DNA of 40,233 nt, from contig WVYX01000016.1 in assembly GCA_011772755.1 (NCBI GenBank), positions 1 to 40,233 on the forward strand, written 5' to 3'. Below the pieces are notes generated by a model. It was not told the origin of the DNA and did not search any database. It worked only from the letters and a program-made list of their open reading frames with translations. The position numbers and the translations under genes are program-made. Below are positions 2,334-40,233 of this stretch, one piece after another (position 1 is the first letter of the stretch; each line of letters starts with the position of its first letter). The stretch is from Gemmatimonadales bacterium. GTDB taxonomy: Bacteria > Gemmatimonadota > Gemmatimonadetes > Gemmatimonadales > GWC2-71-9.

Positions 2334-3692
2334 TTACAGCAGTTGCTTCCGGTTTTCATATATCTTCTGAATGGCATGAATGATATCATCCATGTCTTCC
2401 CGTTCGGACAGCAGCATGTTCTGGTAGAACCAGACCGCCTCCCGGGTCAGCTGGTCATTGTCGGGCAGGTCGTGCAACTCCTCCCGGTACCGGTTGAGCC
2501 TCTGTTCCGAGAAGAGCCGCTTATACCCCCTTGTACTGATGGCTTCTTCAATCAACCCGTCAAAGTACTGCTGTCCGTATCCTTCGGAGCAGGGGATCCC
2601 TTCGGCCCGCAGTGCAGTCAGGAATCTCTCCCGGGGCAGACCGTCGAAGTGCTCCTTTTTGTAGCGGAAAGGATAGAGATGGTATGCCGATCGTGTGGCA
2701 CCGTCGGACAGTTTGTAGGGAATGATTCCCGGGATCTCTTTCAGCCGGGCATCCAGGTAGAGGGCGTTCTCCAGCCGTTTGTCCGCATCCGCCCTTGCGC
2801 GCTTCATCTGCGACAGCAGGATAACCGCCTGCATCTGTGTCATCCGCTTGTTTGACCCACGGACCGGATTTTGGCCCATTCCTGCCATGGAAGCACCATA
2901 GGGCCGGCCGCAATTGTGGTACGCCTGGCAGCGGTCCATCACCTCGTCGTTGCTCCCCACCACGGCACCGCCTTCCCCCGAAGCGATATGTTTGGACTCC
3001 TGGAAACTGAAACATCCCAGGTCACCCAGCGTGCCGCACATCTTGTCCCCGTATTCCGCCAGCCACGCCTGGCAGGCATCCTCTATCACCACCAGCTGAT
3101 GCTCTTGGGCAATGGCATTGATGCGGTTCATATCCGCCGGCAGGCCCAGGATGTGAACGGGAAGGATGGCCGTCGTACGATCCGTGATCCGCTCTTCGAT
3201 CTTATGGGGATTGATCGTAAAGGTCTCCTGGTCCGTATCGGCAAAGACGGGAAGGGCTTTCGAGTTGAAAACCACATTGTAGGTAGCGATAAAGGTGTAG
3301 GGTGAAACGATGACTTCATCCCCTGCATCCACCCCCAGCACGTGGAGGGCGGTGATCAGCGCGGTTGTCCCGCTGGCTGTAGCCACCACCCGTTTAGCTC
3401 CAATGAGCTCGGCATACTGCTCTTCGAACTCACTGCACAGGTTGCCGCTTCCCCGCCACCAGTTGCCGCTCCGAAGCACCGACAGCATGGGGGCTTCCGC
3501 ATCGGGATTCCAGATGGGCCAGCTCACCCATTCCCTGGTCCTCACGGGCTTCCCGCCCTTTAGGGCGAGCGCTGTTGTCAGCCCTGTTCCGGAATTCCCG
3601 AAAACAGGCAGGTAGCTTGTCAGCATGGCACCCGCTGTTCCTGCAGAGGCGCTGACAATGAATCTTCTTCTGGTTAAGTCGTTCTTTTTCAT
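2334..3692 (-). CDS. Tat-exported DegT/DnrJ/EryC1/StrS-type aminotransferase
   Basis: A 452-residue PLP-dependent sugar aminotransferase-type protein. It begins with a twin-arginine leader (TRRRFIVSAS, about 7-16). The substrate-binding and PLP regions are recognisable: SGTTALITALH near 108-118, the cofactor Asp in IEDACQAW (D205) and the Schiff-base Lys in SFQESKHIASGEGGA (K234). AGGAG lies nine bases upstream of ATG 3692. Cytoplasmic relatives aminate NDP-keto-sugars; a Tat leader on this fold is unusual and the substrate is unknown. The gene sits between two inverted IS6-family copies and has visibly lower GC than its neighbours (the first 60 bases at its 3' end are only about 38% G+C), which suggests horizontal acquisition. 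Function by homology is firm; physiological role is open. Confidence 0.88.
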   Translation of the reverse strand: MKKNDLTRRRFIVSASAGTAGAMLTSYLPVFGNSGTGLTTALALKGGKPVRTREWVSWPIWNPDAEAPMLSVLRSGNWWRGSGNLCSEFEEQYAELIGAKRVVATASGTTALITALHVLGVDAGDEVIVSPYTFIATYNVVFNSKALPVFADTDQETFTINPHKIEERITDRTTAILPVHILGLPADMNRINAIAQEHQLVVIEDACQAWLAEYGDKMCGTLGDLGCFSFQESKHIASGEGGAVVGSNDEVMDRCQAYHNCGRPYGASMAGMGQNPVRGSNKRMTQMQAVILLSQMKRARADADKRLENALYLDARLKEIPGIIPYKLSDGATRSAYHLYPFRYKKEHFDGLPRERFLTALRAEGIPCSEGYGQQYFDGLIEEAISTRGYKRLFSEQRLNRYREELHDLPDNDQLTREAVWFYQNMLLSEREDMDDIIHAIQKIYENRKQLL

Positions 3693-3717
3693 GCCCGAAA
3701 CTCCTGTTGATCGGCTC

Positions 3718-4413
3718 TGTCAACTTAACGGCTTCGGCGTGATGCTCGACCGGTAGTTGTGGGCGTTTCTCACCCAGCCGTGGCCGCACTCCATTCCCTG
3801 AACGAACCGTCGCGTAGCAACCGGAGATGCGCTGCACGCAGTAGGTGGCGTCCCAGCCTGAAGAGGCTCTGCACCACACTGTGAACTGCCAGACATTGCT
3901 GCGCTTGACCAGCTGACTTGAACCGTCGCATCTGTCGTTATCGTTATCGTTGTCGAATCGGTTGATGTGAGACTTCAGCCCGATTGATTCGCTGCCCCTT
4001 CAAGAGCTTTCGAACGAATCGTTTAGCAGCGTGCGCATTGCGGTAACGCTGAAACAGGATGTCGATCACGTCCCCGTCTTGGTCCGCGGCTCGCCACAGG
4101 CAGTGCAGCTCACCCCTCATCTTCACGAACACCTCGTCCGGGTGCCAAATATCGCCTAGCCACTTCTTTCGACGCTTGAGCTTTCGTGCGTACTCGGGCC
4201 CGAACTTCCGGCACCACTGCCTGATGGTCTCGTAGGAAACAGCAATCCCTGGCTTCGCCAGGAGTTCCTCCATATCGCGGAAGCTCAGGGAAAATCGATG
4301 GTACAGCCAAACGCTGTGGTTGATGATTTCACGAGGGAACCTGTAGCCGCGATAACCGTTCGCATTCGTCTTCATCCGCGAGGTCTCGCCGGTACCGGCT
4401 CAAGTTGACAATA
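3718..4413 (-). mobile_element. decayed IS6-family insertion sequence (right copy)
   Basis: About 696 bp bounded by matching ends: TATTGTCAACTTGAGCCGG at the 4413 side and TGTCAACTTAACGG at the 3718 side. The transposase N-terminus (ORF 3944-4375, minus strand) reads FPREIINHSVWLYHRFSLSF, then YETIRQWCRKFGPEYA and IWHPDEVFVKM, which holds the first catalytic Asp. The reading then jumps from VRKLLKGQ directly to NRAEVSHQPIRQR (catalytic Glu). The segment that normally carries the second Asp (ITDKL-like) is deleted, and the C-terminus (LFRLGRHLLRAAH-like, about 3790-3900) is out of frame. It is therefore inactive by itself. It lies in opposite orientation to the left fragment, with the aminotransferase gene between. 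Confidence 0.82.
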
Positions 4414-19684: not shown

Positions 19685-19753
19685 CCTGGTTGGCCCATTG
19701 GGTCTGGTGACTTCGCTTGCCCCGCGGTCTCGTGCTCGCTGACGCTTCGCAAC

Positions 19754-19771
19754 GAGCCCTGGCGGGGCAAC
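19754..19771. repeat. dispersed CCCTGGCGGGGCAAC module, copy 1
   Basis: GAGCCCTGGCGGGGCAAC followed by TTGGCG. Further copies lie at 23702, 28594 and 32227. Copies 1 and 3 both run directly into GA/CT-rich hairpins. Confidence 0.7.
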
Positions 19772-19780
19772 TTGGCGACG

Positions 19781-19826
19781 GTGAGGAGTGAGGAGTGAGG
19801 AGTACCCCTCACTCCTCACTCCTCAC
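19781..19826. repeat. long hairpin of GGAGTGA-type words, copy 1
   Basis: The arm 19781-19799 (GTGAGGAGTGAGGAGTGAG) is a perfect 19-bp reverse complement of 19808-19826, with an eight-base loop. Each arm is itself a tandem of an eight-base word. A related hairpin is at 28621-28666. Confidence 0.8.
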
Positions 19827-19838
19827 TCCTTACTCCTC

Positions 19839-19861
19839 ACTCGAACACCGCTCTACTCGCT
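19839..19861. repeat. 23-bp direct repeat flanking the kinase gene, left copy
   Basis: ACTCGAACACCGCTCTACTC plus GCT; the right copy at 22483-22505 differs by one base (C to T). The pair brackets the kinase gene. Confidence 0.72.
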
Positions 19862-20066
19862 CCCTCGACGGCCCGCTGCCAGAGTGATGCCCCACCGACA
19901 TTTCGGCCCCCCGACCCGGCAAAGGACGACACGAACGCGCGTTTAGGGTGACGTATTGCCGGGTTGAGGCCCCCAGTGGTGCGCCTCTGGAGTAGGAGAT
20001 CCCTACCCGGCGTCGGATCAGGATTACCTTTCTCCCCTTTCGGCTCTGGCCACGTCCCGCCGCGGG

Positions 20067-20107
20067 CCGTACTGTAGCCGGGTACGCACGTGAGGTCGCG
20101 CAGGGTG
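20067..20107 (+). promoter_or_regulatory. start-proximal block conserved between the two kinase genes
   Basis: The pattern CCGTA-N2-GTAGC-N3-GTAC, then CGTG-N-GGT and GGGTGGAAG, aligns without gaps to 39789-39829, upstream of and through the GTG starts of both kinase paralogues. It may be a shared promoter with a very short leader. Two in-frame GTG codons (20090, 20105) are conserved in both copies. Confidence 0.5.
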
Positions 20108-22477
20108 GAAGACCTCATTGGACGCCTCAAGTCTGCAGTCGGCGATCGTTACACCATCGAGCGAGAATTGGGCCGCGGTGGGATGGCGACGGTGTATCTC
20201 GCGGAGGACCGCAAGCACCGCCGCCATGTCGCCATCAAGGTCCTGAAGCCCGAGCTCGCCGCCGCCCTCGGCCCCGAGCGCTTCCTGCGCGAGATCGAGA
20301 TTACTAGCCAACTCAATCACCCTCACATCTTGCCGCTGTTGGACTCCGGCGAGGCTGAAGGGCTCCTGTTCTACGTCATGCCCTACGTGGAGGGCGAGTC
20401 CTTAGCCAGTCGCTTGGACCGCGAGAAACAGCTCCCGCTCGAGGACGCCCTGCGCATCGCGGCCGAGGTGGCCGACGCGCTGGGTTTTGCCCACAGCCGG
20501 AACGTGCTGCACCGCGACATCAAACCGGAGAACATCCTGTTCGAGGGCGGCCATGCGGTGGTCGCCGACTTCGGTCTGGCCCGGGCCATCACCGCGGCCG
20601 GAGGTACCCGGCTCACGGAAACCGGGATCGCCGTGGGTACGCCGGAGTACATGAGCCCCGAGCAGGCAGGCGCGGAGCCGGAGCTCGATGCTCGTACTGA
20701 CCTCTACAGTCTGGCTTGTGTGGTCTACGAGATGCTTGCAGGGGAGCCGCCCTTTACGGGACCCACGACGGAGAGCGTCGTCCGCCAGCATCTCACGGCT
20801 GAGCCCCGACCGTTGACCACGATGCGTAGGAGCGTGCCCGAGCCGGTCTCCCAGACTCTCATGAAGGCGCTGGCCAAGTCGCCGGCGGATCGGTTTCCGA
20901 CGGCGGGCCAGTTCTCTCAAGCGCTCACCGGCCCTGCACCGGCGGTGGCTGCTGGCCCAGTACCTCTCGCCGTAAGAGAGAAAGCGCGGCGCAGGGTGAT
21001 TGCGTATGCTGCAATCCTCATTCTGGTGATGGTCGGTGCCTACACGGCAATTTCCCGCACTCTCCGTCCGCCCGGGTCAACTGTGGCGTCCCAGCAACCC
21101 AGGCTTGCCGTATTGCCGTTCGAGAACCTCGGCGCGGCGCAGGACGAGTACTTCGCGGATGGAATCACGGAAGAGATCACTAGCCGGCTGGCTCGCCTTT
21201 CCGGGCTAGGCGTCATTGCCCGCACGAGTGCGGCACGGTACAAGGACACGGACAAGACCATCCCCCAGATCGGCGAAGAGCTCGACGTCGAGTACGTCCT
21301 CGAGGGCACCGTGCGGTGGGACAAGTCGAGGCCTGGTCCAAGCCGAGTGCGCGTGAGTCCGCAACTCATCCGAGTCTCCGACGGCACGCATGTCTGGACG
21401 GAGCCCTACGAGGGCGTGCTGGCCGGGATCTTCGAGATCCAGAGCGCGGTCGCCGAGCGGGTGGCGCAGGCACTGGACGTTGTCTTGCTGGACCCGGAGC
21501 GGCAGTCGTTGGCTGCCAAGCCGACCGAGGATCTCGAGGCCTACGACCTCTACTTGCTCGGCCGCCATCACTTGAGGACGCGAACCCCAGAGGGACTTGA
21601 GCGAGCCATCGCTTGCTTCCGTCAGGCGATCGCACGCGATTCAGGATTCGCGGAGGCATATGCGGGCCTGGCAGAGGTCTACGCCTCACTTCCGAGCTTC
21701 ACTCAGGCCCGGGCGTCGGAGGTTCTTCCGCTGGCGCAGGCGGCCGCGCTCGAAGCGCTGGCCTTGGACAGCACGCTCGCCGAGGCCCACGCCGCCTCAG
21801 GGTTCGTCGCGTACGTGTTCGAGTGGAACTGGGCTGCTGCCGAGATTCGGTTGCGAGAGGCAATCAGGCTGAATCCCAGCTACGCACCGGCTCGGCTGTA
21901 TTACACCTATTGGCTGATCACGTTGGGTCGCATGGCGGAGGCACGGGCCGAACTCGAGCGAGCGCAGGATTTCGCTCCGCTTTCCGACCCGTTTGGCGTC
22001 GGGTTCGCGTATCGGCTGCTACGGGAGCCGGAGCGAGCGATTGCGAAGCTCAAGCAGAGCCTCGAGCTGGATCCCGGGTCACCGGTAACATCATTCCAGC
22101 TGGGGGTCACGTACTATCACGACTTGTCCCGGGAAGACGAAGCCCGCGACGCGTGGCAAGTGCTCACGGAGACACCGTACTTCGGTTTCGGTCCCGCTTG
22201 GGCGCCCGTCCTCGCGCACCTTGGGGACCCGGACGAGACCATCGCAGCGCTGAGTGGATGGATCGAGGCCGCCGGGCCCGAGTCGATGCACTGGTTCATT
22301 CCGGCTACGCTCTTCGCGGTGTTCGGCGCGAGCGAACGCTCACTGGAGTGGCTGGAACGGGGCTATGAGGAGCGCAGCACCCTGCTGGCGTTCGCTACCG
22401 CGGATCCCGTCTTCGATGGCCTCCGGTCGCACCCCGGCTTCACGGACCTCGTCAGGAGAATAGGCGTTCCCCAGTAG
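20090..22477 (+). CDS. membrane Ser/Thr protein kinase with TolB-like and TPR domains
   Basis: A 795-residue PknB-type receptor kinase. The kinase domain (about 20-280) has the glycine loop ELGRGGMATVYLAED, Lys50 in VAIKVLKPE, the catalytic loop HRDIKPEN (141-148), DFG at 160-162 and the P+1 segment GTPEYMSPEQ. One membrane helix lies at 302-322. Then comes a TolB/adenylate-cyclase-associated-like domain (338-465; RLAVLPFENLG and DEYFADGITEEI) and a TPR-like helical repeat region to the end. The kinase should be cytoplasmic and the TPR part periplasmic. This architecture is typical of Gemmatimonadota. The start may be GTG 20090 or GTG 20105. It is bracketed by 23-bp direct repeats, and a close paralogue begins at 39827. 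Signal and substrates unknown. Confidence 0.92.
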   Translation: MRSRRVEDLIGRLKSAVGDRYTIERELGRGGMATVYLAEDRKHRRHVAIKVLKPELAAALGPERFLREIEITSQLNHPHILPLLDSGEAEGLLFYVMPYVEGESLASRLDREKQLPLEDALRIAAEVADALGFAHSRNVLHRDIKPENILFEGGHAVVADFGLARAITAAGGTRLTETGIAVGTPEYMSPEQAGAEPELDARTDLYSLACVVYEMLAGEPPFTGPTTESVVRQHLTAEPRPLTTMRRSVPEPVSQTLMKALAKSPADRFPTAGQFSQALTGPAPAVAAGPVPLAVREKARRRVIAYAAILILVMVGAYTAISRTLRPPGSTVASQQPRLAVLPFENLGAAQDEYFADGITEEITSRLARLSGLGVIARTSAARYKDTDKTIPQIGEELDVEYVLEGTVRWDKSRPGPSRVRVSPQLIRVSDGTHVWTEPYEGVLAGIFEIQSAVAERVAQALDVVLLDPERQSLAAKPTEDLEAYDLYLLGRHHLRTRTPEGLERAIACFRQAIARDSGFAEAYAGLAEVYASLPSFTQARASEVLPLAQAAALEALALDSTLAEAHAASGFVAYVFEWNWAAAEIRLREAIRLNPSYAPARLYYTYWLITLGRMAEARAELERAQDFAPLSDPFGVGFAYRLLREPERAIAKLKQSLELDPGSPVTSFQLGVTYYHDLSREDEARDAWQVLTETPYFGFGPAWAPVLAHLGDPDETIAALSGWIEAAGPESMHWFIPATLFAVFGASERSLEWLERGYEERSTLLAFATADPVFDGLRSHPGFTDLVRRIGVPQ

Positions 22478-28165: not shown

Positions 28166-28593
28166 GGCGACCTCCATTCGTGAGATTGCGCCCGAGCGCA
28201 TTTGCCGCTCGTCGAGCGAACTACCTACAGCACGGTCCGTCGGAACTGGTTGATGGCGGAGCTGCGAGACTGTCGTTCTGCTTCGCTTGAGCTGCGGCCT
28301 TCGCCAGCAGGGACGAACCCAGCCACCATCAGTTGGAGCCGGTTACCCTTGTCGCGTGTTGACCGTCGGTGGTCCGGCGGTTCCACGAATTTAAAACCAA
28401 TGTATTCCCCTTCCTAATCGGGAAAAAGGGTAATTCCACTCGGGATTCGGCGGCCCGGGCGGCAGCGGGCCAGAAAGGACGGCGCCCGGCCGGGGCCGGG
28501 CGCGGCAGGTGTGAGGGTTTCTCCGGGCAAATGCGGGCTCAAGTAGCCCCTTGACTGGGCAGCCGATGCTCGAAAGTCGCTCTGCTTCGGGAC

Positions 28594-28611
28594 GAGCCCT
28601 GGCGGGGCAAC
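28594..28611. repeat. dispersed CCCTGGCGGGGCAAC module, copy 3
   Basis: GAGCCCTGGCGGGGCAAC then TTGGCG, identical to copy 1 across this core and, like it, followed within ten bases by a GGAGTGA-type hairpin. Confidence 0.7.
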
Positions 28612-28620
28612 TTGGCGGCG

Positions 28621-28666
28621 GTAAGGAGTGAGGGGTAAGGAGTACCCCTCACTCCTCACTCCTTAC
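28621..28666. repeat. long hairpin of GGAGTGA-type words, copy 2
   Basis: GTAAGGAGTGAGG (28621-28633) is perfectly complementary to CCTCACTCCTTAC (28654-28666); further CTCACTCC words follow to 28680. Same composition and flank as 19781-19826, different word order. Confidence 0.75.
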
Positions 28667-28695
28667 TCCTCACTCCTCACCGCCTTCTCGTCAGC

Positions 28696-32226: not shown

Positions 32227-32278
32227 AGCCCTGGTGGGGCAACGAAAGGCGGGTCAGCCGGCAGGTTGGCTCGCTTTC
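32227..32278 (+). terminator. dispersed module copy 4 with terminator hairpin
   Basis: AGCCCTGGTGGGGCAAC, then AAAGGCGGGTCAGCC, a four-base loop and GGTTGGCTCGCTTT with a T-rich tail (CTTGTTTC). Begins at the acetyltransferase stop codon and repeats the arrangement at 23702-23752. Confidence 0.68.
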
Positions 32279-32442
32279 TTGTTTCACAGGGCCGCTCCCC
32301 CCAATCTCTCTTTCAGCCTCTCAGCACTGTCTCTGGCGCGAACACAAGGCCTCGGGACCATGCTGCGTGGAGTGACACCTAGTCTGCGCTCAGGTGATGG
32401 CGTTATGTGGTCACTTCGCAGCATACCGGCAATTAGCCAGAC
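32269..32442. repeat. about 170-bp dispersed palindromic element, copy 1
   Basis: Shares TCCCCC..CAATCTCTC, CATGCTGCGTGGAGTG and ATGGCGTTATGTGGT with copy 2 (35706-35881). ATGCTGCG (32360-32367) and CGCAGCAT (32417-32424) form the ends of an internal inverted repeat. It lies upstream of the methyltransferase gene. Confidence 0.72.
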
Positions 32443-32515
32443 GCCCTCCTCGGAGCGCCCTCAACAACGCTGGCCGAGTGGATCGAGAGCCGGAAGGCGA
32501 GGAGTACATAAGCCG

Positions 32516-33346: not shown

Positions 33347-33509
33347 GTTTCGTGAAGGACGGGGTGAGTTGTGCGGTGTGTTTGTGCGCTCATGCTACCG
33401 GCGAAAGGCGGTATTCCTCTCCTCGTTCGAGGGCACACGGGTCGGCTCTGCCACCCCTATCCTGGGAGCAGGATTGGTTGACCTGCAACGTCTCCCGCGG
33501 CCGAGCCGC

Positions 33510-33749
33510 CTACTTCGTGGGATCGACCTTCCGCTGTGCCTTCCCGTCCACGATCCGCCGGCCGAACGCCAAACAGCGCGCGACGGCCACCTCTTCGTTG
33601 GGGTAGGTGTTGGGCGCGCGGCATCGCCGTACCCCCGTGCTACGGCCCGCGGGGGTGATGCGCACTTCGAGCGTCCAGCCGTGTGGGTTGTCTTGCAGCT
33701 TGGTGGTGGGCTCGATCACGTATCCGTTGTACTCAATGCGGGTGCTCAT
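33510..33749 (-). CDS. small unknown protein D of a five-gene operon (paralogue of A)
   Basis: About 79 residues from ATG 33749, preceded by GGGAGG; it overlaps the end of gene C by 17 bases. Unrecognised family. It shares with gene A (34214-34453) a pattern of Y-x-GY/GW-x-I-x-P at the start, WTLEVRI in the middle and a C-terminal C-x-AFGRRIVDGK, so the two are diverged paralogues of a small beta-rich domain. No leader or membrane helix, hence cytoplasmic. Last gene of the operon. Confidence 0.72.
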   Translation of the reverse strand: MSTRIEYNGYVIEPTTKLQDNPHGWTLEVRITPAGRSTGVRRCRAPNTYPNEEVAVARCLAFGRRIVDGKAQRKVDPTK

Positions 33750-33957
33750 TGTCCTCCCGGGGGTCATTGTTTTCGGATTTCGCCGCCTCGCGGGCCCGAG
33801 CCTGCTCCTCCGCGCGCCTGGCGCGCCGCTGCTCCGCTCGCTTGGCGCGCCGCTGCTCCGCTCGCTTGGCGCGCCGCTCCTGCTTGAGCTGACGTTTCGC
33901 TCGCTTGTCGGCTTCCCGTTTGCGCTTCGCTGCCGTCAGTGGGCCGCGTCTCGCCAT
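33733..33957 (-). CDS. small Arg/Lys/Glu-rich coiled-coil protein C
   Basis: 74 residues from ATG 33957, two bases after the stop of gene B. Almost wholly charged, with a seven-residue word RRAKRAEQ repeated in tandem (two nearly exact copies plus RRARRAEEQ). This gives a long basic single alpha-helix, and an acidic/polar tail (ENNDPREDNEHPH). Suggests nucleic-acid or ribosome contact, which is inference only. The internal DNA repeat makes length variation by slippage likely. Confidence 0.7.
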   Translation of the reverse strand: MARRGPLTAAKRKREADKRAKRQLKQERRAKRAEQRRAKRAEQRRARRAEEQARAREAAKSENNDPREDNEHPH

Positions 33958-33959
33958 CC

Positions 33960-34217
33960 TCAGCCTCCGCTCTCGTCGACGGATGGGAACGCGTGCGCAT
34001 CGAGCCACGCCGTGAACGCCCGATGGAGCTCCGCCTCATCCTGACCGGGGTGGAACGGCATGACCTCCCACCGCGTGCCGGCGCCCATCAGCCACCACGC
34101 GGGCACCGTGGCGGGTTGCGCCCGCTTCGGGTTGGCCGGCAGGCCGTCGTACGACACGAAATGAAACTGACGGCCGCGGTAGTGCAGCCGCCGTTGCTCG
34201 ACAACAGGTCGGCTCAT
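33960..34217 (-). CDS. small unknown protein B
   Basis: 85 residues from ATG 34217, which overlaps the stop of gene A by four bases (ATGA). Contains RQFHFVSYDGLPANPKR, WWLMGAGTRWEVMPFHPGQD and a C-terminal helix AELHRAFTAWLDAHAF. Soluble, no leader. I do not recognise a family. Its place in the middle of a run of overlapping genes argues that it is real and works with its neighbours. Confidence 0.7.
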   Translation of the reverse strand: MSRPVVEQRRLHYRGRQFHFVSYDGLPANPKRAQPATVPAWWLMGAGTRWEVMPFHPGQDEAELHRAFTAWLDAHAFPSVDESGG

Positions 34218-34453
34218 CGCAGGTCCTCCAGCGAACAGTACGGTACACGGCCGTCGATGATGCGACGTCCGAACGCGTGGCACCCGCGAATGGCTGCCTG
34301 CTCGGTCTGGAACGTCTTAGGTCCGCTGAACGCGCGCTGCTTCGTGCGGTACGCGATCACGAGATCCAGGGTCCATTGCCGGCTGCCGCGGATCTGGAAC
34401 GTGCGGGGGGTGATAGTCCATCCGCGATAGGTGAGGGAGTTCACCGGAGGCAT
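34214..34453 (-). CDS. small unknown protein A (paralogue of D)
   Basis: 79 residues from ATG 34453, overlapping the end of gene E by 13 bases. Reads SLTYRGWTITPRTFQIRG, WTLDLVIAYRTKQ and CHAFGRRIIDGRVPY. The same GW/GY-x-I-x-P, WTL and AFGRR(I/V)DG pattern occurs in gene D, so one operon encodes two versions of this unassigned domain. Soluble; no catalytic motif apparent. Confidence 0.7.
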   Translation of the reverse strand: MPPVNSLTYRGWTITPRTFQIRGSRQWTLDLVIAYRTKQRAFSGPKTFQTEQAAIRGCHAFGRRIIDGRVPYCSLEDLR

Positions 34454-34830
34454 CGCGACATCGGCAGGAGGTCCAAGGTCACGAGCGCGCACTCATAGCG
34501 CGAGCCCGCCCTCCGCAACCGCATGAACAGGTGCTCCAGGCTCGGCAGTGACCAGACCGTGGCGTGGGTGGTTCCCGCCACCTGCCAACGGTCCCCTTGT
34601 GTATGCCCCACGCGGTCGGTCGTGCGCACGAATCCCGCGAAAGGTGTGTAGCGCAGGAAGTCCATCAGGCCGAGGGCCATGCGCTGGGTGGGGCAGTGGA
34701 AGACGAACGTGAACTGCTGCGGCAGCCGCAGTATGTCGGCGGCCAACAGATCGAGCCAGTAGCGGCGGGCCTTGACCAGCGAACCTGTTGAAGCGCCGTC
34801 CTGATACTCGTCGGGCAGCGCGGCGCTCAC
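34441..34830 (-). CDS. small unknown protein E, possibly RraB-like
   Basis: About 129 residues from GTG 34830, the only usual start in the conserved part of a much longer open frame (to 35334) that has no other coding character. Contains LPQQFTFVFHCPTQRMALGL, then FVRTTDRVGHTQGDRWQVAG and SLEHLFMRLRRAGSRYECA. The alternating strand/helix pattern and the W-x-V after a basic stretch resemble RNase E inhibitor RraB-type folds, but only weakly. First gene of the operon, behind a hairpin leader. Confidence 0.55.
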   Translation of the reverse strand: MSAALPDEYQDGASTGSLVKARRYWLDLLAADILRLPQQFTFVFHCPTQRMALGLMDFLRYTPFAGFVRTTDRVGHTQGDRWQVAGTTHATVWSLPSLEHLFMRLRRAGSRYECALVTLDLLPMSRCLR

Positions 34831-34903
34831 GCGGCCGTCCGCCCGACGAACCTGGGAACGGCGGCCGCTTCGGTCTCGGCACCGCAGGTGCGACCATAAA
34901 GCA

Positions 34904-34987
34904 TCAGGGGCAGGGCGCTTCTCCTCGCAAAAGAAAGAAGCGGGATCGCCGCCTGCGGCGCATTCCCGCTTTAGGATCGGTGTCCAT
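34904..34987 (-). CDS. possible 27-codon leader peptide with Arg run
   Basis: ATG 34987 opens MDTDPKAGMRRRRRSRFFLL, then RGEAPCP and stop. Five Arg codons lie inside the strong hairpin at 34938-34971. The stop is about 74 bases before gene E. It may be a regulatory leader or chance. Confidence 0.3.
   Translation of the reverse strand: MDTDPKAGMRRRRRSRFFLLRGEAPCP
34938..34971 (-). terminator. strong hairpin with U-run in the leader of the five-gene operon
   Basis: On the minus strand AAGCGGGA..GCCGC..GCGGC..TCCCGCTT forms a long two-part stem followed by CTTTCTTTT, the form of an intrinsic terminator. No complete leftward gene ends here, so it sits in the operon leader and could attenuate it. 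Confidence 0.65.
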
Positions 34988-35327
34988 GGGGCGACACGCC
35001 ACGTCACCCGGCTATGAAGCTTAGTCGGTGGCAGTCCCCCTGTCAAACGCGCTGACCGATGGCGGGACGCACCAAGCGCGGCCCATTCCTTTTCCGCACC
35101 GGCTCGACTATCTTGTGAGCAAGCCAAGAGGCGTTCATCGAAGCGCCACAGACAAACGCAACGGAATTGCAGGGGAACCGGCAACTGACGCGGTTCCCCT
35201 TTCTCTTGGTAGAACGCCGCACGATGCGGCACTCCACCGCGGGGACACATCCGCGGACAACACGATGGACGATCGGCCAGTGCGGACACTCCGGACTCCG
35301 ACGTGCATCGAACACAGAGGAGCAGGT
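34988..35327. other. divergent intergenic region with leader of the cold-shock gene
   Basis: About 340 bp between the leftward operon and the rightward cold-shock gene. It holds the hairpin at 35171-35200 and otherwise no recognisable gene; long 5' leaders are usual for cold-shock genes. Confidence 0.5.
35171..35207 (+). terminator. isolated terminator-like hairpin upstream of the cold-shock gene
   Basis: AGGGGAACCG and CGGTTCCCCT form a perfect ten-bp stem with a ten-base loop, followed by TTCTCTT. No rightward gene ends here, so it may terminate a small RNA or act in the cold-shock leader. Confidence 0.6.
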
Positions 35328-35540
35328 ATGTCACGTATCACTGGCAAGGTGAAGTGGTTCAACGATCAGAAGGGCTTTGGCTTCATCACGCCCGACAATG
35401 GCGAAAAGGACTGCTTCGTCCACCATTCGGCGATCCAGGCGACGGGCTTCAAGACGCTCGGAGAAGGCGACGCCGTGGAGTTCGACGTGGTTCAGGGTGA
35501 CAAGGGTCCCGCCGCGGAGAACGTCTCCAAGATCGGCTAG
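35328..35540 (+). CDS. cold-shock domain protein (CspA family)
   Basis: 70 residues from ATG 35328 with GAGGAG six bases upstream. A single cold-shock domain: RNP1 is KGFGFI (15-20) and RNP2 is CFVHHS (29-34), after the usual GKVKWFN start. Length and composition match CspA-type RNA chaperones that melt mRNA structure. RNP2 has Cys for the usual Val/Ile and His for Phe. It has a possible structured leader (35171-35207) and its own terminator at 35569-35602, so it is monocistronic. Confidence 0.95.
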
Positions 35541-35568
35541 TCGCACTGCGTAGCACTGCAGGCGATGG

Positions 35569-35602
35569 AAAGGGGTCGCATCGAGGAATTGCGGCCCCTT
35601 TT
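35569..35602 (+). terminator. intrinsic terminator of the cold-shock gene
   Basis: AAAGGGG-T-CGCA, loop, TGCG-G-CCCCTTTT: a strong stem directly followed by T residues, 28 bases after the stop codon. Confidence 0.85.
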
Positions 35603-35705
35603 ACCGTCGTGCCGTCTAGGGCGGCAAGATACCGTTTCAGCAACACCAGCGCTGGCCGGGCACCCTCAGCGGGCGGTTCTGGGTCCTAGGGTGTTTGGTC
35701 CAAGG

Positions 35706-35881
35706 GCTCACTTTCTCTTTTCAAAGCGCCACTCCCCCAATCTCTCCTCCGACTTCTTGAGCGCTGTCACAGGCCGCGAAGACAAGGACTCGAGACCATG
35801 CTGCGTGGAGTGCCACCCAGTCTGCACTCAGGAAATGGCGTTATGTGGTTACTTCGCAGCATACTATCAGCTAGCCAGATG
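35706..35881. repeat. about 170-bp dispersed palindromic element, copy 2
   Basis: Aligns over its length with 32269-32442. The internal inverted repeat ATGCTGCG (35798-35805) / CGCAGCAT (35855-35862) is kept exactly. It lies directly upstream of the membrane-protein gene, as copy 1 lies upstream of the methyltransferase gene. Confidence 0.72.
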
Positions 35882-35918
35882 CAGAAGTCATGGAAACCTG
35901 AGGAAGGGTAGGTGTCCA

Positions 35919-39708: not shown

Positions 39709-39788
39709 GTCGAGTCCTCCACTCGCGACCACCGCCGAAAAGTGAGTAGGCCCCTCCCCTTTTTGGGGTAGCCGCACACCGCATGGAA

Positions 39789-39829
39789 CCGTAAAGTAGC
39801 GCTGTACACGCGTGGGGTGCTGCGGGGTG
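39789..39829 (+). promoter_or_regulatory. start-proximal block shared with the first kinase gene
   Basis: The same CCGTA-N2-GTAGC-N3-GTAC / CGTG / GGGTGGAAG pattern as 20067-20107, aligned without gaps and including both in-frame GTG codons (39812 and 39827). Confidence 0.5.
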
Positions 39830-40233
39830 GAAGACGTCATTGGACGCCTCAAGTCTGCACTGGCCGACCGCTACACCATCGAGCGCGAGTTGGGTGGCGG
39901 TGGGATGGCCACGGTCTATCTCGCTGAGGACCTCAAACACCACCGCCACGTTGCCATCAAAGTCCTGAAGCCCGAGCTCGCTGCCGCCCTCGGCCCTGAG
40001 CGGTTCCTGCGCGAGATCGAGATCGCCGCCCAACTGAATCACCCGCACATCCTGCCACTGCTCGACTCCGGCGAGGCGGACGGCTTCCTCTACTATGTCA
40101 TGCCCTATGTGGAGGGCGAATCCCTCCGTCGGCGCATCAAACACGAGATTCAGCTTTCCATTGAGGAGGCACTGCGCATCACCCGGCAAGTGGCTTCAGC
40201 ACTCGAGTACGCCCATCGCCACCACGTGATCCA
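39827..40233 (+). CDS. Ser/Thr protein kinase, cut by the window end
   Basis: The first 135 residues of a PknB-type kinase, 5' complete and running off the window. It has the glycine loop ELGGGGMATVYLAED, the catalytic Lys in VAIKVLKPE (Lys45) and ERFLREIEIAAQLNHPHILP. The sequence stops just before the HRD loop (EYAHRHHVI). It is highly similar at DNA and protein level to the start of 20090-22477 (from VED-IGRLKSA to the YVEGES segment), so they are recent paralogues; glycine-loop residue 24 is Gly where the other has Arg. Whether it also carries TolB and TPR parts cannot be seen. Starts at GTG 39827 or 39812. Confidence 0.9.
   Translation, partial: MEDVIGRLKSALADRYTIERELGGGGMATVYLAEDLKHHRHVAIKVLKPELAAALGPERFLREIEIAAQLNHPHILPLLDSGEADGFLYYVMPYVEGESLRRRIKHEIQLSIEEALRITRQVASALEYAHRHHVI

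Follow-up and report, generated by a model that had tools for sequence, protein, structure and literature searches.

A cold-shock gene and five small overlapping genes form a conserved block in Gemmatimonadota, a candidate portable module for RNA handling in the cold

What might five small, tightly packed genes do beside a cold-shock gene in a Gemmatimonadales bacterium, and do the six genes belong together? The locus lies on contig WVYX01000016.1 (assembly GCA_011772755.1), of which nucleotides 1–40,233 are the window analysed here. The five genes occupy the minus strand from 34830 to 33510 in the order E (34441–34830, 129 aa), A (34214–34453, 79 aa), B (33960–34217, 85 aa), C (33733–33957, 74 aa) and D (33510–33749, 79 aa). 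E starts with a GTG at 34830, which aligns with GTG, TTG or ATG starts in other genomes, and overlaps A by 13 bp (34441–34453); A and B share a 4-bp ATGA (34214–34217), B and C are separated by 2 bp (33958–33959), and C and D overlap by 17 bp (33733–33749). The five ORFs and their four junctions thus agree exactly with the sequence-only reading. Divergent from them, on the plus strand, is a cspA-type cold-shock gene, csp (35328–35540, 70 aa), with a PF00313 cold-shock domain scoring 104.5 bits against a cut-off of 27.

The order csp (divergent)-E-A-B-C-D is found complete in three other genomes (L080 in G050, L078 in G324 and L079 in G325), which a genome-contig scan assigned to the Gemmatimonadota; searches covered genomes of the phylum and of the family. 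By blastn, the window matches these three loci over a 2.1-kb block (33493–35623) at about 80–82.5% DNA identity. Similarity begins and ends just past D and just past csp, and the flanks are unrelated in each genome. These bounds identify csp plus the five genes as the unit, placed at a different genomic position each time, so that the cold-shock gene, earlier recorded as present and divergent, is indeed there as a member of the conserved block rather than a mere neighbour. Partial forms also exist: L081 has A-B-D but neither E nor C, L082 has A-B-C, and L106 has E..C-B with csp 2.6 kb away. In every pairwise comparison among four or five orthologous loci dN/dS is below 1 (E, 0.31–0.44; A, 0.08–0.31; B, 0.18–0.45; C, 0.24–0.69; D, 0.23–0.62), and all five genes are therefore under purifying selection as proteins. 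The full module is known from four genomes, in a sample made up almost entirely of metagenome assemblies. The suggestion of a multi-gene system is borne out by these comparisons, which show its order conserved in relatives; neither an absence of gene-order conservation nor fragments of one longer known protein were found.

Compact overlapping small genes of unknown function in a block that changes location are also what a toxin-antitoxin or anti-phage defence system might look like. We consider this reading very improbable, as csp belongs to the conserved block, the five include no nuclease or toxin family, and none of the five proteins matches a PADLOC model at E ≤ 1; a defence system was accordingly rejected.

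The protein that connects the module to a wider genomic context is B. Its residues are strongly conserved and its predicted fold comprises four strands and a helix. No convincing match to B was found in Pfam, NCBIfam, PHROGs, PADLOC or the PDB sequences, and its predicted fold matched none of the PDB or viral models. The similar predicted layout of strands followed by a helix made B a candidate third copy of the family of A and D (the CV_2116 domain, see below), which was rejected when profile comparison with A/D showed no similarity. Matches to B at E ≤ 0.01 occur in 48 of 298 genomes of the phylum, that is, in up to 16% of the sampled genomes, the weakest matches being doubtful. Across 41 B loci in 40 genomes, a cold-shock gene lies within 1.5 kb at eight, where 0.12 would be expected (Poisson 9e-13, ignoring relatedness), and a strong DEAD-box helicase match lies within 1.5 kb at three, where 0.044 would be expected (Poisson 1e-5, again ignoring relatedness); both statistics use contig-level positions in draft genomes. 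Most B loci adjoin neither. The csp link recurs in at least five genus-level groups (window/G050; G214; G273; G008; G106/G088), and on the B tree six changes are required to explain csp adjacency and four to explain helicase adjacency. When 79 genes in the vicinity of B at 35 loci were counted by Pfam family, with some module members left out, CSD (5) and DEAD/Helicase_C (4) ranked highest and HlyIII (3) and fatty-acid desaturase (3) came next. B is an undescribed family, and its genomic neighbours suggest a part in RNA handling in the cold.

Several individual B loci deserve description. At L110 (739–2478; G106:C320) one cold-shock gene lies between two B-family genes. C and B genes accompany an RhlE-like DEAD-box helicase at L111 (2089–4225), L112 (1987–4122) and G199:C1:2051005-2053073; in G199 the helicase sits between B and C. 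A fatty-acid desaturase gene directly adjoins B at L088 (4273–5445) and L091 (2724–3716), and haemolysin-III (PAQR-type) genes adjoin it in L087, L111 and L112. These neighbours could fit a membrane response to cold; the desaturase link, found at one place among the 40 genomes (G148), is only suggestive. A family of short charged proteins (SKRDAQRLAALIKKTAAK... / SKSDEQRMAALIRKNAAK...) lies directly upstream of B in two genomes, at L083 (3809–3958) and L062 (5429–5602).

The C protein is highly charged and presumably helical, has a basic core and an acidic tail, and its tandem RRAKRAEQ words, already remarked on in the sequence-only reading, correspond to three copies of a 24-nt unit. The family occurs in 90 of 298 genomes of the phylum. 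As a csp- or helicase-linked family in its own right C was rejected: among 30 C loci one has a helicase (G199) and one has csp (the module in G050).

E had been credited with a weak RraB-like look, which structure prediction upholds with qualifications. The AlphaFold2 model, built from five sequences, shows an N-terminal helix followed by a β-α-β-β-α-β arrangement at moderate confidence (pLDDT 76, pTM 0.70), the E alignments being shallow. By TM-score its best full-length PDB match is VC0424 (1NXI; TM 0.66/0.65), which has the same ferredoxin-like fold with an N-terminal helix and which a profile of local Gemmatimonadota RraB proteins recovers as RraB kin (E-value 1e-4). Foldseek E-values are better for other proteins with a ferredoxin-like fold (permuted ribosomal protein S6, for example), which cover only part of E. 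A sequence search of the PDB with E returned nothing useful, and Pfam RraB (PF06877, cut-off 23.3 bits) does not match E of the window. The L106 orthologue does match Pfam RraB at an E-value of 0.0084 and 17.1 bits, under that cut-off and slightly behind CDC50, which surely scores by chance. A bridging protein, L021, matches both the E profile (3e-5) and Pfam RraB (2e-4); this divergent RraB relative (361–825; G207:C304) scores 22.2 bits, just under the cut-off. In hhalign, E aligned with an RraB set that includes L021 at 85% probability and, weakly, with three strong local RraB proteins without L021 at 2.6–5%. The C-terminal DGW motif, invariant in the local RraB proteins, is absent from E and all its orthologues. 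The connection to RraB is thus made by the fold, the bridging L021 and the L106 orthologue, and given the sub-threshold scores, the weak hhalign result without L021 and the missing DGW motif, E is, on its predicted structure, RraB-like and not an RraB member.

RraB proteins bind the C-terminal half of RNase E as well as RhlB, and CsdA and RhlE join the degradosome in the cold (PMC3997798). RNase E/G was found in eight of eight genomes tested. In the present genome it is a short frame of 511 aa, and the E. coli docking site for RraB is therefore probably absent. Short RNase E/G enzymes cannot assemble a degradosome of the E. coli kind (PMC3997798); a helicase or the catalytic RNase is therefore a likelier target of E than that docking site.

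The remaining two genes, A and D, encode CV_2116-domain proteins. Both exceed the curated cut-off of NF046097 (58 bits) over almost their full length, A with 75.7 bits and D with 78.3 bits, which overturns the earlier view that no family could be recognised with confidence among the five. That A and D are paralogous, as had been proposed from shared motifs, is supported by 39% identity (E-value 6e-8), and A used as a query against the whole genome returned only itself and D. A sequence search of the PDB with D gave nothing useful, and 2KON is the sole PDB match of the A/D profile, at a non-significant E-value of 0.82. 2KON is the NMR structure of the CV_2116 founder, a protein of unknown function with a novel alpha+beta fold, encoded in a Chromobacterium prophage next to phage tail genes and proposed to have a tail or baseplate accessory role (PMC3397530). 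In contrast to that setting, the domain is present here in two copies within a csp-linked operon, with no phage genes recognised.

The founder's prophage context raises the question of whether the five genes are cargo of a mobile element or prophage, unrelated in function to csp (e.g., tail or baseplate accessories), that was inserted beside it and carried along. The different genomic places of the block would be compatible with such an origin, as would two copies of a repeat of about 177 bp (82% identical; 32268–32444 and 35700–35882, with inverted ends ATGCTGCG...CGCAGCAT) that flank the region in the window. However, DNA comparison shows that these repeats are missing at the other module copies. 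Furthermore, no phage genes were recognised beside the inspected module copies, none of which shares the founder's tail-gene context, and searches of viral contigs and phage records for A, of plasmids and viral contigs for B, and of plasmids for D found no relatives, so that a phage or plasmid origin was rejected. Cargo status would also sit poorly with the linkage of B to csp in separate lineages, and we regard it as distinctly unlikely.

The two 177-bp copies are the only ones in the genome and enclose a methyltransferase gene along with the module. A chromosomal integron or attC array was considered for them and rejected, there being two copies only, no attC core by eye and none of the repeats at other modules. 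The window holds further repeats. A 216-bp inverted repeat (84%; 2001–2216 and 3713–3928) surrounds a gene at 2337–3626 and lies next to an ORF resembling an IS6-like transposase (3947–4375, minus strand). A 97-bp direct repeat (92%; 19744–19840 and 28584–28680) contains GTGAGGAGT-type words and self-pairs as an inverted repeat, and a 300-bp direct repeat (81%; 20032–20331 and 39754–40053) covers the starts of two genes resembling paralogous protein kinases.

How might the operon be controlled? A sigma70-like promoter, TTGACA-17 nt-TAAGCT (35018–35046, minus strand), precedes E and is conserved in L078, L079 and L080. Its −10 hexamer reads TATNNT in the three other full modules, and in L081, where the promoter lies upstream of A, it is TTGACT-17-TAGGAT. 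All five genomes accordingly share TTGACA (TTGACT in L081), a 17-nt spacer and a TA...T −10-like hexamer. About 46 nt past the promoter, and likewise conserved in the five genomes, is a terminator-like hairpin with a U-rich tail (34938–34971, minus strand; stem AAGCGGGA/UCCCGCUU). Of its eight pairs, six are invariant, and one genome has a broken basal pair. L081 retains both promoter and hairpin despite the loss of E, and there one A-U pair is replaced by G-C, a compensatory change. A terminator scan of the window sequence alone found 2 where 1.8 were expected, which is chance level, and a promoter scan of the window found nothing, its −10 being weak. With single-sequence scans at chance or empty, the case for the leader rests on conservation, and the layout of an attenuator, with a promoter followed by a stable hairpin and U-tract before the first gene, is present in all five genomes. 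An Arg-rich leader ORF, earlier noted together with the hairpin, does exist in the window (from 34987, MDTDPKAGMRRRRRSRFFLLRGEAPCP). Its frame, start codon and sequence change among the genomes compared, so that of the two proposed leader features the hairpin is conserved and the ORF is not, and translational attenuation through an Arg-rich leader peptide was rejected. On the other side of the divergent pair, the csp leader contains a second terminator-like hairpin with a T-rich tail (35171–35208, plus strand), whose stem is found in four genomes. The cspA thermoregulator RNA (RF01766) matches 35155–35604 at 47.8 bits (E-value 1.8e-10), under the gathering score of 78, and the match spans the csp gene itself.

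Together, we lean, with somewhat better than even confidence, towards a portable cold-response accessory module for RNA handling in which the leader terminator gates the operon. In this model, an RNA chaperone gene and a divergent operon for five small cytosolic proteins are kept as one 2.1-kb block, and the operon transcript, started at the sigma70-like promoter, would at once meet the terminator-like hairpin. With the hairpin placed straight after the promoter, expression of E-A-B-C-D should depend on read-through. Upon cooling, Csp made next door would melt hairpins in the nascent RNA, the most likely trigger, and read-through of the leader hairpin would switch on E-A-B-C-D. That Csp itself is the switch, acting by antitermination at the leader, is a tentative part of the model, held with clearly less than even confidence. 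CspA-family proteins are antiterminators (PMC4347634), and the arrangement resembles CspA-family antitermination in E. coli, as cited there (Bae et al., 2000), in having a terminator-like hairpin between promoter and genes with a csp gene alongside. Any action of Csp on the present hairpin is proposed from this resemblance.

The module could also be linked to cold while its hairpin acts as a constitutive partial attenuator or an RNA-stability element, or is relieved by the ribosome, a helicase or Rho-independent slippage. No antiterminator structure could be recognised, most pairs of the stem are invariant, and it is conservation that supports the hairpin as an element, all of which would suit such roles. 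These would account less readily for the retention of promoter, short leader, hairpin and U-tract across the five genomes, including the one without E, or for the known antiterminator activity of Csp proteins, and we judge them unlikely.

Once produced, the E-A-B-C-D proteins would probably help the cell to handle RNA at low temperature. E, given its RraB-like fold, would engage the RNA-decay or helicase machinery; C would serve as a basic peptide that binds nucleic acids or the ribosome, and A, D and B as small binding proteins or adaptors. The sequence-only reading had guessed at an RNA-related role, which now gains backing from the fold of E and from the statistical association of B with csp and DEAD-box helicase genes. 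A bolder version, which we hold as doubtful, would make E-A-B-C-D an undescribed cold-induced complex controlling RNA remodelling or RNA decay and switched by Csp antitermination, with B as a general Gemmatimonadota cold adaptor beside Csp and DEAD-box helicases.

A parallel in gene layout is the cspB locus of Caulobacter crescentus (CCNA_03888, CCNA_00703, CCNA_00704), where csp likewise lies beside small genes whose role is unknown (PMC8552747). Their products measure 65–119 aa and include a basic protein, and their transcription is independent of csp and strongly induced by cold. The cold-induced set of this organism also includes cold-shock proteins, a desaturase and DEAD-box helicases, RhlE among them (PMC8552747). 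Cold induction was measured in Caulobacter, whereas the present genes, known from sequence, form one overlapping operon divergent from csp and include identifiable CV_2116 and RraB-like members.

Cold induction of small genes next to csp is thus known already in Caulobacter. The Gemmatimonadota module offers a compact, conserved set of genes that can be tested, in which the promoter is defined, the leader has a hairpin and folds can be recognised. B adds a new protein family with a neighbourhood suggestive of RNA handling in the cold. If the proposed model is true, a cold-shock chaperone, a protein resembling regulators of RNases and helicases, and a leader switch would be joined in one portable unit in this little-studied phylum.
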